From: an uncultured bacterium
GTDB taxonomy: Bacteria; CALINM01
DNA: 15,190 nt
Reading direction: 5' to 3'
NCBI GenBank assembly: GCA_938045315.1
Contig: CALINM010000191.1
Location: 1-15,190, forward strand
A program made the position numbers and the translations under genes. The notes beneath the pieces were generated by a model. That model was not told the DNA's origin. It made no database searches and was given only the letters and a program-made list of their open reading frames with translations. Shown in pieces: positions 2,294-13,136 of this stretch (position 1 is its first letter; each line of letters starts with the position of its first letter).

Positions 2294-2692
2294 TTAATCT
2301 TCAATTAATATCTTTTCTAATGTTACACTTTTTCCAATGATCTTGAAGGCTTTAACATCGGGGATTTTATTCATAAAGGATACGATAATATAAAACACAT
2401 CATCATAAAAAGCCATATTTATATCTTTTGCCGAAGGCCGTGCTGGTGTTTTAGGATGACTGTGAAATATGGCTAACATTTTCATGTTGTTTTCTCGGAT
2501 ATCTTTCATTACTCTTATCTGCTCATGGGGATCCATAAGATAACTTTCCGGGCTTTCTTCAACATTTCTCATTTTATATATTTTTTTTACTAAATTGTTT
2601 ATGCCTGCGAGGATCCCACAGGCTTCATTTGGTAATTTAGAATTGGTATATGAAATTATTTCATCATAAATAGTTTTCGGAATTCTAATCAT
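2294..2692 (-). CDS. JAMM/MPN+ metalloprotease, Mec/HcyD-like
   Basis: Zinc-dependent isopeptidase/peptidase of the small bacterial JAMM family (Mec of Mycobacterium, HcyD of Wolinella, QbsD of Pseudomonas). Members cut at the C-terminal Gly-Gly of ubiquitin-fold sulfur carriers, either releasing the amino acid just made or trimming the pro-carrier. The 132 residues are essentially one JAMM core. The full motif is present: Glu23 (in NEACG), then His77-Ser-His79-Pro, six residues, Ser87, two residues, Asp90. It is soluble, with no signal peptide. It is the last gene of the sulfur operon, 9 nt after the moeB-like gene, with an AGGA ribosome site overlapping the end of that gene. Inference: it probably both removes the SPII tail of the carrier encoded at 3519-3737 and liberates cysteine from the loaded carrier. 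Its family is clear; its exact substrate is inferred from neighbours. Confidence 0.9.
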   Translation of the reverse strand: MIRIPKTIYDEIISYTNSKLPNEACGILAGINNLVKKIYKMRNVEESPESYLMDPHEQIRVMKDIRENNMKMLAIFHSHPKTPARPSAKDINMAFYDDVFYIIVSFMNKIPDVKAFKIIGKSVTLEKILIED

Positions 2693-2701
2693 TTTTGCGT
2701 C

Positions 2702-3505
2702 CTAATTTTTTAAATCACAAATTTCAGTTTCATAATCAATGAGATCTTTTATTTTAGGATTTTCACCACATAAAGGGCAGTTTTTATTTTTTTTAAAGTT
2801 AATTGTTCTAAACTCTATATTAAGCAAATCAACAAAGAGTAGTTTATTTGTCAATAACTGTCCAGCGGAAAGAATATACTTAATAGCCTCAGAGGCTTGT
2901 ATAACTCCAAGTAGTCCAGCCATAACACCAATAATTCCAGCTTCGCTACATGTGGGGACCACACCCTTTGGTGGTGGAGAATCGAAGATACATCTATAGC
3001 AAGCATTTTCAGGTAAATAAGTAAACGTTTGTCCCTGAAACCTAAGTATACCACCATGAGAAAAAGGCTTTTTCTCAAAAAAACAGGCATCGTTAATCAA
3101 AAATTTAGCAGGAAAGTTGTCGGTACCATCAATAATAAAATCGAACTCACGAACTATTTCCCTTATATTTGATGCATTAACCTTTGTATTGTAAGTTATT
3201 ACCCTTACGTGGGGATTGATTTTTGCTATTTTCTCTTTAGCTGAGTATATTTTTTCTTTGTTCACATCTTCGGTGAAATGTATTATTTGCCTTTGTAGAT
3301 TTGTTATATCTACTTTATCTCCGTCAACAATACCTATGGTACCTACACCTGCAGAGGCTAAGTAAAGCAGAGCAGGGGAACCCAGACCTCCAGCACCTAT
3401 CACTAAAACTTTAGAATTAAGAAGCTTTTCCTGTCCTTTGCCTCCCACTTCTTTAAGGATAATTTGTCTTGAATATCTTTCGATCTGTTCGTTTGTTAAT
3501 CTCAT
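2702..3505 (-). CDS. moeB: MoeB/ThiF-type sulfur-carrier adenylyltransferase
   Basis: E1-like enzyme that uses ATP to adenylate the C-terminal glycine of a ubiquitin-fold sulfur carrier, preparing it for thiocarboxylate formation. The 267 residues match MoeB/ThiF length. Seen: the Rossmann nucleotide loop GAGGLGSP (37-44), Asp61, DxxNLQRQ (66-72), DGTDN (126-130), structural zinc cysteines Cys169/Cys172 and Cys243/Cys246, and Cys186 in the VPTCSEAG loop, equivalent to the conserved Cys of MoeB/ThiF. There is no C-terminal rhodanese domain, unlike mycobacterial MoeZ, so the sulfur must come from another protein or from sulfide. AAAGGAG (3512-3518) supports the start, 13 nt after the carrier gene. 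Because that carrier gene is adjacent, its partner is probably that protein rather than MoaD; the moeB symbol denotes family, not proven molybdopterin function. Confidence 0.9.
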   Translation of the reverse strand: MRLTNEQIERYSRQIILKEVGGKGQEKLLNSKVLVIGAGGLGSPALLYLASAGVGTIGIVDGDKVDITNLQRQIIHFTEDVNKEKIYSAKEKIAKINPHVRVITYNTKVNASNIREIVREFDFIIDGTDNFPAKFLINDACFFEKKPFSHGGILRFQGQTFTYLPENACYRCIFDSPPPKGVVPTCSEAGIIGVMAGLLGVIQASEAIKYILSAGQLLTNKLLFVDLLNIEFRTINFKKNKNCPLCGENPKIKDLIDYETEICDLKN

Positions 3506-3518
3506 ATTTTTTCTCCTT

Positions 3519-3737
3519 TTAAATTATTGGACTTCCGCCGCCCATGTAATAAATAAATTCAATAGAGTCATTGTCTTTAACATAGGTAGTTTTAAATTTT
3601 TCTCTCTCTAAAATTGTGCCATTTAGTTCCACAGTTACCATCTCTGGCATTTTTACTTTTTTTAATTTCAGCAATTCTTCAATTGTTAAGCTTTCCTTTT
3701 CGAAAGATTCAATTTTTCCATTAACAGTGAGTTTCAT
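3519..3737 (-). CDS. ThiS/CysO-like sulfur carrier with C-terminal tail
   Basis: Small beta-grasp (ubiquitin-fold) protein of 72 residues, typical for ThiS/MoaD/CysO. It has the ThiS pattern of an N-terminal strand (MKLTVNG), a central helix (LTIEELL, 17-23), [11 protein letters not shown] (36-46), DNDSIEF (55-61) and a glycine-rich end. The functional Gly-Gly is normally the very C-terminus, but here GGG (66-68) is followed by SPII and then the stop. The carrier must therefore be cut before it can be adenylated and carry a thiocarboxylate, as reported for HcyS and QbsE. The start codon overlaps the stop of the cysteine synthase gene (ATGA, 3734-3737), indicating translational coupling. Neighbours (synthase before; E1 and JAMM protease after) point to a sulfur donor for cysteine synthesis. 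A thiamine role is less likely because no thiG or other thi gene is nearby. Confidence 0.88.
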
Positions 3738-4672
3738 AATTTTTCCTCCTCTTCAAAAATTTCAAACATACTTAAATATCTATCACCCCTATCGGGGAGA
3801 ATTACTACTATAATCTTATCTTTGTTTTCCTGTCTTTGAGCTACCTTTAATCCCGCATAAAGTGCAGCTCCTGAAGATATTCCACATAGAAGGCCTTCTT
3901 CCTTTGCTAATCTTTTAGTGGTAATATATGCATCCTCATCGCTTACTGTTATAATTTCATCAATTAAACTTCTATCAAGAATTTTAGGGATAAATCCCGC
4001 ACCTATGCCCTGAATCTTATGGGCACCAATTTTACCTGATGTTAAAACAGGTGATCCTCTCGGTTCCACACCTATAGCAACGAAGTCTTTTTTGAGAGTT
4101 TTTAATACTTTTGAAATACCAGTTATTGTTCCTCCTGTACCTATGCCTGCGACTAAAATGTCAATTTTCCCATCTGTATCATACCATATCTCTTTTGCTG
4201 TTGTTTCCATATGAGCTTTTACATTGGCTTGATTTTCAAATTGGTGGAGTATAATAGCTTTTTTGTAAGATTCTTTCAGTTCATATGCTTTTTCAATAGC
4301 CCCTTTCATTCCCTTATGGGCAGGAGTAAGTATTGTTGTTGCGCCGAATGATTGAAGAAGTTTTCTCCTCTCTATGCTCATTGTTTCTGGCATTGTTAAT
4401 ATAAGTTTGTAGCCCTTATAGGCGCAAATCATTGCAAGTGCTATTCCAGTATTCCCACTCGTTGGTTCGATTATTATTGTGTCGCTATCTATCAACCCTT
4501 TACTTTCGGCATCAAGAATCATATAAAGTCCAGCTCTATCCTTTACTGAACCGCCAGGGTTTTGTGACTCCAGTTTTCCATAAATTGTTGAATGAAGTCC
4601 AGCTGCTATCTTTTCTAATTTAACTAACGGGGTTTTACCTATTAAATCTAAGATGCTTTTGTAAACGTTCAT
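3734..4672 (-). CDS. cysK: PLP-dependent cysteine synthase (CysK/CysM family)
   Basis: Fold-type II PLP enzyme replacing the acetyl or phosphate group of an activated serine with sulfur to make cysteine. The length of 312 residues is normal. Seen: the PLP lysine Lys44 in NPGGSVKDR (38-46), substrate loop TSGNTG (71-76), phosphate-binding GIGTGGT (176-182), [10 protein letters not shown] (218-227) and GISSGAA (264-270). By these motifs it looks closer to CysK (O-acetylserine sulfhydrylase A type) than to Mycobacterium CysM, despite its position next to a sulfur-carrier gene. Whether it uses sulfide or the carrier thiocarboxylate, and O-acetylserine or O-phosphoserine, cannot be settled from the motifs. 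It begins 7 nt after cysH, with a GAGG site over the cysH stop, and overlaps the carrier gene by 4 nt. Confidence 0.92.
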
Positions 4673-4679
4673 AAAATCC

Positions 4680-5366
4680 TCATTTTATTTCAAGATGAAG
4701 CCCACATTCCTTTTTACAAAGACCTTTCCACCTGCCAGATCTCTCATCATAAAAATCCGGAAGTTCTGTGCATGGCTCGCAACCAATACTTGTATATCCC
4801 TTTTCATATAAAGGGTGAAAAGGGATATTGTTGTCTTTCATATAGTTATAAACATCTTTTGATGTCCAGTTTAAAAGGGGATAAATTTTTACCAAGCCTG
4901 AATCAAGTATTTCGATTCTGTTTAATGTTCTTCTAAAATCTGTTTGTTCTTTTCTTATTCCCGATATCCAGGCTCTTATATCTTTCTTTCTAATGTAATC
5001 GTAAAAAGGCTTTACTTTTCTCTCTCTACAGCAGAAATCTGGATCTTTTTTGAAGATATCATACCCGAATTTTTTTAAAAAAATTTCTTTATTTTCAGAA
5101 GCTTTTACTTCAACAAAATTTGCATTTTTATAAAAATTTTTAAGTATTTCTATGTATTCTAATGTCTCCTTAAAAAAGAATCCTGTGTTAACATAAACAA
5201 TTTCAATTGGAAGGTTCAATTTACAAATAAGGTCAATTATTACCCCTGATGTAATACCAAAAGATGTAGAAGAAATAATTTTGGGTTTAAAAAGATGATA
5301 GGATTTCTCGATTAATCCTTTAGCATCTAAGGTTTCAGATAATCTAAGTAATTCATTAATATTCAT
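4680..5366 (-). CDS. cysH: Assimilatory APS reductase (iron-sulfur CysH)
   Basis: Reduces adenylylsulfate to sulfite and AMP with thioredoxin-type reductant, in the cytoplasm. The 228 residues form an adenine-nucleotide alpha-hydrolase domain: SSTSFG (32-37) is the nucleotide loop region and [13 protein letters not shown] (59-71) is typical of the family. The paired Cys112-Cys113 together with Cys196-x2-Cys199 are the [4Fe-4S] ligands that mark APS-using reductases and are absent from classical PAPS reductases. The catalytic cysteine is Cys221 in KECGLH. An additional cysteine, Cys217, sits four residues before it. The gene starts 3 nt after the permease gene and 7 nt before the cysteine synthase gene. 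ATP sulfurylase and sulfite reductase, needed on either side of this step, are not in the window. Confidence 0.93.
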
Positions 5367-5369
5367 ATT

Positions 5370-6782
5370 TTATAACCTCACCCAGATGAATTTAATTGCT
5401 ATGAAAAGGAAAAGAATTGAAAGGATATTCAACAATAAACCTGCTTTAATGCTGTCTTTAATACTGTAAAAACCAGAACTAAAACATATAAGATGGGAAG
5501 GAGTACCCACAGGCAGCATGAAAGAGAGTCCAGACATAAGAGCAATAGTTGCAGTTAATATTTTTAAATCTGTTTCCAGATTTATGCCAGACTTTAAGAT
5601 AATGGGTAAGAGCAACGCAACGACTGTTGCATTTGAGATAAACTCGGTAATAAATATGGCAATGCTTCCAACAATAATAGCATAAATAATTACGTCTGTT
5701 TTTATGATGCTAAATCTGTTAATTAAAAATGTTCCAGCATCGGTCTGGGCAAAAACAGTACCCAGGGTTATAGCACCACCGTACATGAAAAAGGCTGACC
5801 AATTAATGTTTTTTTCCACATCACTCCATTCTATGATCCTGAAGATAAAGAATAACACAGCTGAAATTATAGAAACACCGGCAAGTCCTATGCCTTTATG
5901 TCCCATGAAAATCCATCCAATGATAGTAATTAAGATAATCAAAAGAACGATTAGTTCAGTAAAAGTGAAAGGCGGCAATGTTTCTAGTTCCCGTTTAATT
6001 TTTTTTGTTACAATTTCAATATCAATCTGTTCTGGCATAAAAATATTGGAAATAATAATAAAACCTGCAATGGATATGGGAATTACAAGGGGTAATGAAT
6101 ATTTTAGCCAGTCGATAAAGCTTATTTTAATACCCCATATTTCTTCAAGAAGCCCCACTGCCAAAGCATTTCTTGCTCCGCCAAGGAAAGTAGCTATACC
6201 ACCTATTATTGTGCCGTATGCAAGGGATAAAAATAAAAGTTTACCGTAGTTTGATTTCTTTTTTTCTAATTTAAGTTCTCCCGTTATGCTCATAACGATG
6301 GGAAATAAAAAAACCGCTACAGCATGTTCAGGCATGAAAAATGACATCATAAGTCCAGTAATATAAATAAGAAATGCAAGTTTTTTTGGATCCCTGGTTG
6401 ATTTTGACAGGATTATTAAGGTAATTCTTTTTGAAAGTCCTGATTTTTCTGTAGCACTGGATATGATAAATGCTGAGAGTATAAAAAATAAAGGTTCATT
6501 ACCAAAAAGTGAAAAAGTTTTTTTCGCGGGTAATATAGATAAAGCTGGTATTAGTACTAAAACCAAAAGGCTTGTAATTGCTGTGGGTATTAAATTTGTG
6601 GTCCATAAAATAGCAGTTAACAAAAATACTAAAATTATTCTATATCCTTCTTTACTTAAGTTATTAACCTCAAAATTAAGAAGGAATATAAAAAGCGAAA
6701 ATAGGGCAATGAGAAAGAAAAATTTGTAATATCTTAATAATAAGAGCCAGAATAAGGGTCTTTTATCAATTTTTATACTCAT
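5370..6782 (-). CDS. DASS/SLC13-family anion permease, likely sulfate
   Basis: Inner-membrane transporter of the divalent anion:Na+ symporter family; the substrate is inferred as sulfate because the gene directly precedes APS reductase. The 470 residues contain about a dozen hydrophobic segments. Family landmarks in the second half are ELVPK-free and clear: FISNATVVALLLPI (381-394, the SNT-type hairpin) and FMLPVGTPSH (421-430). In the first half the equivalent hairpin reads FFMPEHAVAVFLFPI (148-162), with PEH where many members have SNT, followed by GGIATFLGGARNALAVG (194-210). These first-half changes affect the region that binds one sodium ion in characterised members, so ion coupling may differ. 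The start is 2 nt after the preceding stop, with an AGGA site. Other possible substrates are dicarboxylates, molybdate or thiosulfate. Confidence 0.85.
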   Translation of the reverse strand: MSIKIDKRPLFWLLLLRYYKFFFLIALFSLFIFLLNFEVNNLSKEGYRIILVFLLTAILWTTNLIPTAITSLLVLVLIPALSILPAKKTFSLFGNEPLFFILSAFIISSATEKSGLSKRITLIILSKSTRDPKKLAFLIYITGLMMSFFMPEHAVAVFLFPIVMSITGELKLEKKKSNYGKLLFLSLAYGTIIGGIATFLGGARNALAVGLLEEIWGIKISFIDWLKYSLPLVIPISIAGFIIISNIFMPEQIDIEIVTKKIKRELETLPPFTFTELIVLLIILITIIGWIFMGHKGIGLAGVSIISAVLFFIFRIIEWSDVEKNINWSAFFMYGGAITLGTVFAQTDAGTFLINRFSIIKTDVIIYAIIVGSIAIFITEFISNATVVALLLPIILKSGINLETDLKILTATIALMSGLSFMLPVGTPSHLICFSSGFYSIKDSIKAGLLLNILSILFLFIAIKFIWVRL

Positions 6783-6784
6783 TG

Positions 6785-7312
6785 TTAAAGTCCTGATGCG
6801 TTGTATGAGTCATAAACTTCTTTTATACGTAATTTTCGCCGTAAGTTCGTAATATCAATCCAGATTTTTCGCTTAATTGGTTCAAAAATAGAGTCTTCTA
6901 ATAAAAAAGGCATTTTTTTTATTAAGTTTTTATTGCTCAGTATGCTATCTTCATTATTCTTTAGTACAATTGTATCTGCAGGTAGTACTGATATTATCTC
7001 TTTAAAAAGTTCTTTGTTTTCTGAAATAGAATTATTAAATGCAAAAATATCGATGCCAGCTGCATAAAGAATTTTAAGTCTCTCTGTGCTATCCACATAA
7101 TTGGGTTCTAAAATTATAGATATTGATTTTTGCTTAATTTTGGAGATTAAATTTAATAAGCCGTGCTTTGTTAAAGAATCATTATATATGATATGCACAT
7201 ACCTGTGAATTTTGTAGTTAAAAAAAGATAGGAAATGTTCAAGAAGTTCGTCCAGATTTGTATTACTGTCTATGTTGAAAACAACACCTCTTTCCATTAC
7301 CTTATCTTCCAT
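6785..7312 (-). CDS. Uncharacterised protein, first gene of sulfur operon
   Basis: I do not recognise this 175-residue protein. It is soluble, with no signal peptide or membrane segment, and has no cysteine at all. The stretch TERLKILYAAGIDIFAFN (76-93) resembles a strand-helix unit of TIM-barrel enzymes, particularly the second half of radical SAM domains, but the CxxxCxxC cluster motif is absent; this likeness is inference only. A basic C-terminal section (KRKIWIDITNLRRKLRIKEV, about 147-166) follows. It is real by context: it is served by a near-consensus promoter, ends 2 nt before the permease start, and leads an otherwise coherent cysteine operon. The start is uncertain: ATG 7312 has no clear ribosome site, while the ATG at 7297 (residue 6) has GGAAG 8 nt upstream. 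Confidence 0.75.
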   Translation of the reverse strand: MEDKVMERGVVFNIDSNTNLDELLEHFLSFFNYKIHRYVHIIYNDSLTKHGLLNLISKIKQKSISIILEPNYVDSTERLKILYAAGIDIFAFNNSISENKELFKEIISVLPADTIVLKNNEDSILSNKNLIKKMPFLLEDSIFEPIKRKIWIDITNLRRKLRIKEVYDSYNASGL

Positions 7313-7337
7313 TTTTTTCTATTATTTTAGTAGTAAT

Positions 7338-7365
7338 TTTATAATTTATTTATTTTTTATGTCAA
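7338..7365 (-). promoter_or_regulatory. Near-consensus sigma-70 promoter of the sulfur operon
   Basis: On the minus strand a perfect TTGACA (7360-7365) is followed after 16 nt by TATAAA (7338-7343). The predicted start near 7331 gives a short leader of about 18 nt to ATG 7312, or about 33 nt to ATG 7297. There is no room for a riboswitch after this start. The rest of the divergent intergenic region (7313-7435) is extremely AT-rich. No clear operator palindrome was seen overlapping the promoter. Confidence 0.75.
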
Positions 7366-11666: not shown

Positions 11667-13136
11667 TTATATTTTTAATGAGTGGGAAATAAGCTCCTCA
11701 TAGGTAGTACCATCTCTTGGATAAGCTAAAATTTTAGCATGAATTTCTATGTTATCTGCTAAAAGAGCCTTTTTAGTTTTTTCTAAATTTTCAGAGATTG
11801 TTTTGGTATTGATGGGTGCATAAATTATAAAATCATCACCACCTGATCTAACTACAATACATGGATTATTAAAATACATGGATAGGGCATTGGCAGTTTT
11901 TACTATTAAATTATCACCTACAATTCTTCCCTGCTCTTTATTTATCTTCGAAATACCAATTATGTTAACACATACTATAAAGAAAGGCTGTTTTTTTGAT
12001 ATTGTTTCGTTAATAAACTTTTTTAAGTATGGGTACCAAAATAATCCTGTTAAAAAGTCTATGTATATCATTGACTCTCTGAATTTTTCAATGAATGGAA
12101 CTATCTTACTCTCCTTTTCTTCACAAAGTTCACATTCTTTTAAGATTTTAATGGCTGCTAACTCAATCTGGGGATTAAATTTTTTACCAAATTGAGATTT
12201 TATGTATTTTATTGCTTCGTCTTTAGTAATTTTTTCTCTATATGGTCTAAGTGATGTTATTGCATCGAAATTATCAGCTATGGCTATTAATTGAGCTTCT
12301 ATTGGGATCTCAAAACCCTTTAACCCATCGGGATAACCATTACCATCATAGTTTTCGTGGTGATACTTTATCCACGGTACTATCCCTTTTAGTGGATCTA
12401 TTTCTGAAACAATTAAAGCACTCATCTTAGGGTGTTCCTTCATAATTGTATACTCAAAGGGAGTAAGTTTACCGGGTTTAAGTAATATTCTATCAGGAAT
12501 ACCTACTTTCCCTACATCATGAAGAAGGCCTGCTAATTCCAGCTTAGCAAGAGTTTCCTCTTCTAGGCCCAAGCTTTTACCTATCAAAACTGAAATTGTA
12601 GATACCCTCTCTGAATGCCCTCTCGTGTAAGGATCTCTTGCTTCAATAGCATTTGCCAGTGCTTTTACTGACTGAATAGCTAATTGTTCTAATTTCTCTG
12701 TTCTTTCCTTTAGTAAACTTTCTATATGACTAAAATATTTCTTGTGTTGTTTTGTCATTAATCGGTAATTAAGTGCGCTTTCAATTTTTTCTTTCATTCT
12801 TTGAAGTGTAAAGGGTTTAGATATAAAATCAAAAACTTTTTTACTTATAGCTTCCTGAATAAAATCAGGGTTAATTGCGCCACTGATTATAATTACGGGA
12901 ATTTCTGAATATCCTTTTGATCTTATATAATCTACAAAGTAAAGTGAGTTTTTACCCCTGATAAATACATCGAGTATAATTAAATCAATTTCAGGACCAG
13001 TGTCTAAAAATTTTATTGTTTCTTCAATGTTTGGAAAAGCAAAGGCATCATATCCCAAGGTTTCACAAAAGTCTTTGAGCATATCTCTAGGTGCTTCGTC
13101 ATCATCTATAATTACTATAACTGGTTGTTTGCTCAT
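11667..13136 (-). CDS. Response regulator with HD-GYP and degenerate GGDEF domains
   Basis: Probable phosphorylation-controlled c-di-GMP phosphodiesterase. Domains in the 489 residues: receiver (5-122) with Asp11/Asp12, phospho-acceptor Asp56, Ser85 and Lys107; a helical, coiled-coil-like linker (125-160); HD-GYP (about 160-335) with RDPYTRGHSERV (167-178), His206-Asp207, and a complete HHExxDGxGYPxGLxG signature (259-274); and a GGDEF-like domain (about 357-489). The last domain keeps DFLTGL (360-365) and GGDDF (432-436) but has Asn391 where the first metal-binding Asp is expected, lacks the usual NR after TGL, and has no RxxD inhibitory site. It is probably not an active cyclase and may sense GTP. 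The ATG overlaps the stop of the histidine kinase gene by 4 nt (13133-13136), so the two are made together and probably form one phosphorelay. Confidence 0.92.
   Translation of the reverse strand: MSKQPVIVIIDDDEAPRDMLKDFCETLGYDAFAFPNIEETIKFLDTGPEIDLIILDVFIRGKNSLYFVDYIRSKGYSEIPVIIISGAINPDFIQEAISKKVFDFISKPFTLQRMKEKIESALNYRLMTKQHKKYFSHIESLLKERTEKLEQLAIQSVKALANAIEARDPYTRGHSERVSTISVLIGKSLGLEEETLAKLELAGLLHDVGKVGIPDRILLKPGKLTPFEYTIMKEHPKMSALIVSEIDPLKGIVPWIKYHHENYDGNGYPDGLKGFEIPIEAQLIAIADNFDAITSLRPYREKITKDEAIKYIKSQFGKKFNPQIELAAIKILKECELCEEKESKIVPFIEKFRESMIYIDFLTGLFWYPYLKKFINETISKKQPFFIVCVNIIGISKINKEQGRIVGDNLIVKTANALSMYFNNPCIVVRSGGDDFIIYAPINTKTISENLEKTKKALLADNIEIHAKILAYPRDGTTYEELISHSLKI

Follow-up and report, generated by a model that had tools for sequence, protein, structure and literature searches.

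A MetY-less variant of a widespread sulfate-assimilation module with a ThiS-like sulfur carrier in an uncultured bacterium

Which enzyme receives the sulfur of a ThiS-like carrier protein when the carrier gene lies in one run with genes for sulfate import and reduction? The question is raised by a stretch of 15,190 nucleotides (nt; called hereafter the window) from an uncultured bacterium of the GTDB lineage CALINM01 (assembly GCA_938045315.1, contig CALINM010000191.1). Seven adjacent open reading frames (ORFs) are read from its minus strand, from position 7312 to 2294, in the order orphan, DASS permease, CysH, CysK, carrier, E1 and JAMM protease. The six junctions measure, in this order, 2, 3, 7, −4, 13 and 9 nt, the −4 being an ATGA overlap of the CysK and carrier genes. 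Six of the seven proteins were assigned to a family with Pfam and NCBIfam, the exception being the product of the first gene:

6785..7312, minus strand: orphan protein of 175 residues, an ORF without family; function unassigned
5370..6782, minus strand: DASS-family sodium:anion symporter, predicted sulfate importer (Na_sulph_symp 9e-58; TIGR00785 over cut-off)
4680..5366, minus strand: CysH, assimilatory reductase of adenosine 5'-phosphosulfate (APS) or 3'-phosphoadenosine 5'-phosphosulfate, APS-reductase type (PAPS_reduct 5e-43; TIGR00434 and PRK02090 over cut-off)
3734..4672, minus strand: cysteine synthase of the CysK (OASS-A) type (PALP 1e-74; TIGR01139; tree)
3519..3737, minus strand: ThiS-like sulfur carrier with the end MGGG-SPII (ThiS 5e-10; TIGR01683/PF02597)
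2702..3505, minus strand: E1-like adenylyltransferase of the MoeB/ThiF family, 267 residues (ThiF 1.4e-81)
2294..2692, minus strand: JAMM/JAB metalloprotease (Prok-JAB 3.7e-21)

ORF coordinates and family matches agree with a first-pass annotation of the window, which had read seven same-strand genes of these kinds with junctions of −4 to +13 nt. Its call of an APS reductase is borne out as well by the PAPS_reduct match and by the motifs CC...GCEPC...ECGLH, which were read in the sequence and in an alignment to 7lhr. The combination of CC, CxxC and ECGLH is a mark of iron-sulfur APS reductases.

Comparison with described systems identifies the operon, with high confidence, as a sulfate-assimilation module of the class that joins a ThiS-like carrier, an E1 without rhodanese domain and a JAMM protease. 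The carrier ends in YMGGGSPII, that is a (F/Y)MGGG motif with a tail of four residues after GGG, and it shares 37–51% identity with the carriers of six loci of this class (at most 62% in a wider scan). The E1 consists of the ThiF domain only; its central C186 and the C-terminal CxxC pair C243/C246 are invariant in the alignment, and it is 54–69% identical to the E1s of the same module elsewhere. In the JAMM protein, whose closest solved structure is 2kks, the catalytic residues E23, H77, S78, H79, S87 and D90 are all in place and do not vary across relatives. CysH and the DASS permease lie nearby, in the same run.

This class corresponds to type 4e of Iyer et al. 2006, in which carrier, E1 and JAMM genes stand beside sulfate-assimilation genes (PMC1779556); a connection of the carrier route with sulfate assimilation has therefore been known since then. 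Two further type 4e components, SirA/TusA and sulfite reductase, are found elsewhere in the genome. A TusA domain, absent from the operon, is present on contig C65, and TusA is not universal in other loci either. The operon differs from type 4e in having no MetY, TusA, sulfite reductase or ATP sulfurylase, and CysK and the DASS permease stand in place of the type 4e MetY and ABC transporters. Wolinella is listed under type 4e in the table of Iyer et al. (PMC1779556), and the HcyS-HcyF-HcyD set of Wolinella succinogenes is cited as a homocysteine system in passages of two later papers (PMC6225789, PMC5764234). The carrier, E1 and JAMM protease of that set belong to the same class as those of the window, but its acceptor enzyme yields homocysteine, whereas the window has a cysteine synthase in that place. 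This homocysteine system is reportedly the subject of work by Krishnamoorthy and Begley in 2011. MetY, the partner that defines the HcyS pathway, is absent from the window contig. The operon is therefore filed not as an HcyS homocysteine system, but as a MetY-less variant of a known and widespread module.

How widespread the module is was estimated by scanning species genomes with a carrier alignment, which returned at least 574 carrier relatives. Neighbourhoods were counted in the 80 best loci among these, and contig ends make the counts lower bounds. The loci span at least 13 named phyla. E1 was present in 77, JAMM in 75, MetY in 68, TusA in 62, sulfite reductase in 55, CysH in 33, CysK in 31 and CysD in 28; in 11 neighbourhoods CysK, carrier, E1, JAMM, sulfite reductase, CysH and CysD occurred together. 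DASS relatives also lie within the carrier operons of loci L144, L148 and L157. In Melioribacter (L135) the order is CysH-CysD-CysN-sulfite reductase-TusA-CysK-carrier-MetY-E1-TusA-JAMM, and the window order CysH-CysK-carrier-E1-JAMM is the same with some genes removed. Because the association recurs over many phyla, chance is not an issue. A gene-neighbourhood comparison had been proposed with the first-pass annotation; in the one made here the gene association recurs, and most loci also hold the MetY that is missing from the window. The idea that the carrier route is wired to sulfate import and reduction is supported by the operon content, but it is not new, since the arrangement was described in 2006 and is common.

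The remaining steps of the pathway were looked for in the rest of the genome (1.86 Mb in 244 contigs, 92% complete). CysD and CysN adjoin each other on contig C181, and no Sat-type ATP sulfurylase was found in the genome, CysD/CysN being present instead. A sulfite reductase of 782 residues with a C-terminal TusA fusion is encoded on contig C65 (37–2385 of locus L003). CysE, over the model cut-off, is on C226, an APS kinase on C105, and MetX with a MetY fragment on C108. The steps that had been expected elsewhere in the genome are thus there; contrary to the earlier claim, the operon is not complete, with ATP sulfurylase, sulfite reductase and serine acetyltransferase all on other contigs. The sulfite reductase-TusA fusion, which recurs in 34 of the 80 survey loci (L125–L204), suggests a direct handover of sulfur to the carrier system. 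Directly upstream of the fusion gene lies a gene for a radical SAM/SPASM protein (L107:5008-6102, contig C65), perhaps involved in siroheme or heme maturation. A separate thiamine set, ThiS and ThiF, was found on contig C40; as there is also no ThiG in the operon, the possibility that the carrier is the thiamine ThiS was rejected.

From these genes and motifs we infer the following route, in which every chemical transfer is a prediction. The DASS permease would import sulfate, CysD/CysN would convert it to APS, and CysH would reduce APS to sulfite. The sulfite reductase-TusA protein would reduce sulfite and pass the sulfur to the carrier, adenylated by E1, giving a C-terminal thiocarboxylate. 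From O-acetylserine, the product expected of CysE, CysK would form aminoacrylate and add the carrier sulfur to it. The JAMM protease would remove the SPII tail of the carrier, exposing GGG, and would probably also hydrolyse the carrier-cysteine product.

The tail is the reason for the first of these JAMM functions: an active end at GGG, as in ThiS, would require the carrier to be trimmed. Residues past GGG, or a fusion at GGG, were seen in 77 of the 80 survey loci. Among the 77 separate carriers measured, 74 have a tail of 1–21 residues after GGG and three end exactly at GGG, two of these with a JAMM gene in view. As such carriers coexist with a JAMM gene, tail removal is probably not the sole role of the protease, and by analogy with Mec the other role is likely the hydrolysis of a carrier-amino acid product. 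Natural fusions were also found, carrier to MetY in two loci (L134:9001-10437 and L159:9001-10446) and carrier to E1 in a third (L133:8962-10029), with GGG lying between the parts. Carrier tails and fusions are both compatible with cleavage after GGG by the protease. The mid-protein GGG of the three fusions implies that the carrier is either released by proteolysis or functional in the tethered state.

A precedent for cysteine synthesis from a carrier is CysO-CysM-Mec of Mycobacterium tuberculosis, which works with MoeZR (PMC3227635, PMC11361707). Carrier, cysteine synthase and JAMM protease, in the window with an intact site, are common to both, and the logic would be the same if CysK takes sulfur from the carrier; in the window, unlike in CysO-CysM-Mec, sulfate reduction genes lie inside the operon. 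The likeness suggested by the first-pass annotation does not extend to the details of carrier, synthase and E1. The carrier is only 19–28% identical to the CysO-like carriers of JAMM-linked loci, the synthase is of the CysK type and the E1 has no rhodanese domain; membership in this system was therefore rejected. Type 4c of Iyer et al. 2006 (ThiS/MoaD, E1-rhodanese, JAB, cysteine synthase) has four gene kinds in common with the window, but its E1 is a rhodanese fusion and most synthases of comparable JAMM-linked loci belong to a CysM clade of their own.

Is CysK, then, the acceptor? Against NCBIfam models the operon synthase scored 440 bits with TIGR01139 (cysK, cut-off 351, passed) and 314 bits with TIGR01138 (cysM, cut-off 394, missed). 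In the tree it falls in the CysK clade with Escherichia coli CysK, outside the clade of CysM enzymes whose loci have CysO-like carriers. In 12 of the 80 survey loci the gene immediately upstream of the carrier is CysK, and on the CysK tree the label "carrier-adjacent" switches at least four times, which suggests repeated origins of the pairing. The MetY of the genome is of the free type: it groups with free MetYs (100*), apart from 64 operon-linked MetYs, for which a single clade was not rejected (approximately unbiased test, p 0.77). With a MetY of the type that does without a carrier, the best candidate for the acceptor is CysK. Judged from sequence, the chances that the adjacent CysK is the main acceptor of carrier sulfur are about even. 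The full proposal is more tentative and, though possible, falls short of even chances: that a CysK-type synthase is fed by a ThiS-like thiocarboxylate loaded by sulfite reductase-TusA, giving sulfate-to-cysteine synthesis without free sulfide, unlike CysO-CysM, and derived from a homocysteine module by loss of MetY.

Several observations weigh against the route with CysK as acceptor. The direct neighbour of the carrier is MetY in 51 of the 80 survey loci, by far the commonest case, versus CysK in 12. The CysK clade includes ordinary enzymes, namely E. coli CysK and the CysKs of CysK-MetY pairs from the two nearest, JAMM-less genomes, so that the operon CysK bears no sequence mark of carrier dependence. 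CysH is only 28–38% identical to the CysHs of other modules and may therefore have joined the operon separately. A module-type MetY could also be absent from the assembly rather than from the genome, given its 92% completeness and 244 contigs.

In a rival explanation, doubtful but the most serious of those considered, the carrier feeds homocysteine synthesis via the genome MetY on C108, as in Wolinella, and the operon CysK uses free sulfide. Besides its frequent place next to the carrier, MetY occurs in 68 of the 80 loci and is fused to the carrier in two; the genome has both MetY and MetX, and the operon CysK is of an ordinary type. However, this MetY is the free-type enzyme described above, encoded outside the operon and 89–90% identical to the MetY of a same-genus genome that has no module. 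A sulfur transfer to the second synthase of the genome, a CysM-like protein encoded on contig C10, is quite unlikely. That synthase does fall within the clade of CysM enzymes from JAMM-linked loci, but the carriers of those loci are of the CysO-like type, its gene lies away from any carrier gene, and its orthologue is present in the same-genus genome without a JAMM gene.

Two further explanations assign other roles to the E1 or to the whole set. The E1 might mainly activate MoaD-like proteins for the molybdenum or tungsten cofactor, the carrier being a side partner. Such a dual role is described for mycobacterial MoeZR (PMC3227635), and the two ThiF-family proteins found in the genome, the operon E1 and the thiamine ThiF, face two MoaD-like proteins, with no dedicated MoeB found in the genome. 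One MoaD-like protein adjoins an aldehyde ferredoxin oxidoreductase (L104:2705-4691, contig C196), and the window E1 might serve it too. We consider a main role of this kind very improbable: the E1 gene lies within a sulfate-assimilation operon, its module relatives (54–69% identical) lie in operons of the same kind, and the assembly may lack a separate MoeB. Least probable of all is protein conjugation as in the archaeal SAMP/UbaA/desampylase system; desampylase is the best NCBIfam model for the JAMM protein and the E1 matches UbaA, but both scores are well under the curated cut-offs and the partners are all sulfur-metabolism enzymes.

Returning to the module itself, its history in the lineage was explored by comparing the genome with a same-genus genome (92% complete) and a same-family genome (84% complete). 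Neither a JAMM gene nor a sulfite reductase was found in these two. For the CysH family, CysD and two weak, larger members turned up in the same-genus genome and none in the same-family genome. Among the three genomes, JAMM gene, CysH-like match and sulfite reductase are thus confined to the one studied here, and both others carry CysK-MetY pairs without a carrier. On the most parsimonious view, both the carrier module and sulfate reduction, which now occupy at least two contigs, are acquisitions of this lineage; the alternative is that the two related genomes lost them.

A single transcript for the seven genes is plausible. A consensus scan placed a near-consensus promoter directly upstream of the orphan first gene:

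7336..7365, minus strand: predicted sigma-70-type promoter, TTGACA-18-TAAAAT, 11 of 12 consensus positions; no proof of function alone

On the operon strand a single, weak terminator-like site was found within the run, as expected by chance, and no Rfam family, riboswitches included, was found within the operon. leuS starts 87 nt downstream of the JAMM gene on the same strand, so that the transcript may run on. The orphan protein gave no Pfam or NCBIfam match, and against 289 other genomes its best match reached only E 0.0019, with no relatives found even in the same genus; the matches at E 0.002–0.008 all lie within longer proteins. Its AlphaFold model, made from the single sequence without alignment, was uninformative (predicted local distance difference test 49). 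Elsewhere in the window, positions 11667–13136 encode a response regulator that contains an HD-GYP-like region and ends in a degenerate GGDEF-like part (SGGDDF), as judged by eye, and an adjoining hybrid histidine kinase runs off the contig.

The survey shows that fusions of sulfite reductase to TusA, and of the carrier to its enzymes, are natural parts of the module. These proteins offer concrete material for the question of whether the sulfur of sulfite is passed on without release as sulfide. Should CysK indeed draw its sulfur from the carrier, a cysteine synthase of ordinary appearance would depend on a carrier, and in the many module-bearing genomes it would not be safe to annotate CysK as an enzyme that uses free sulfide.

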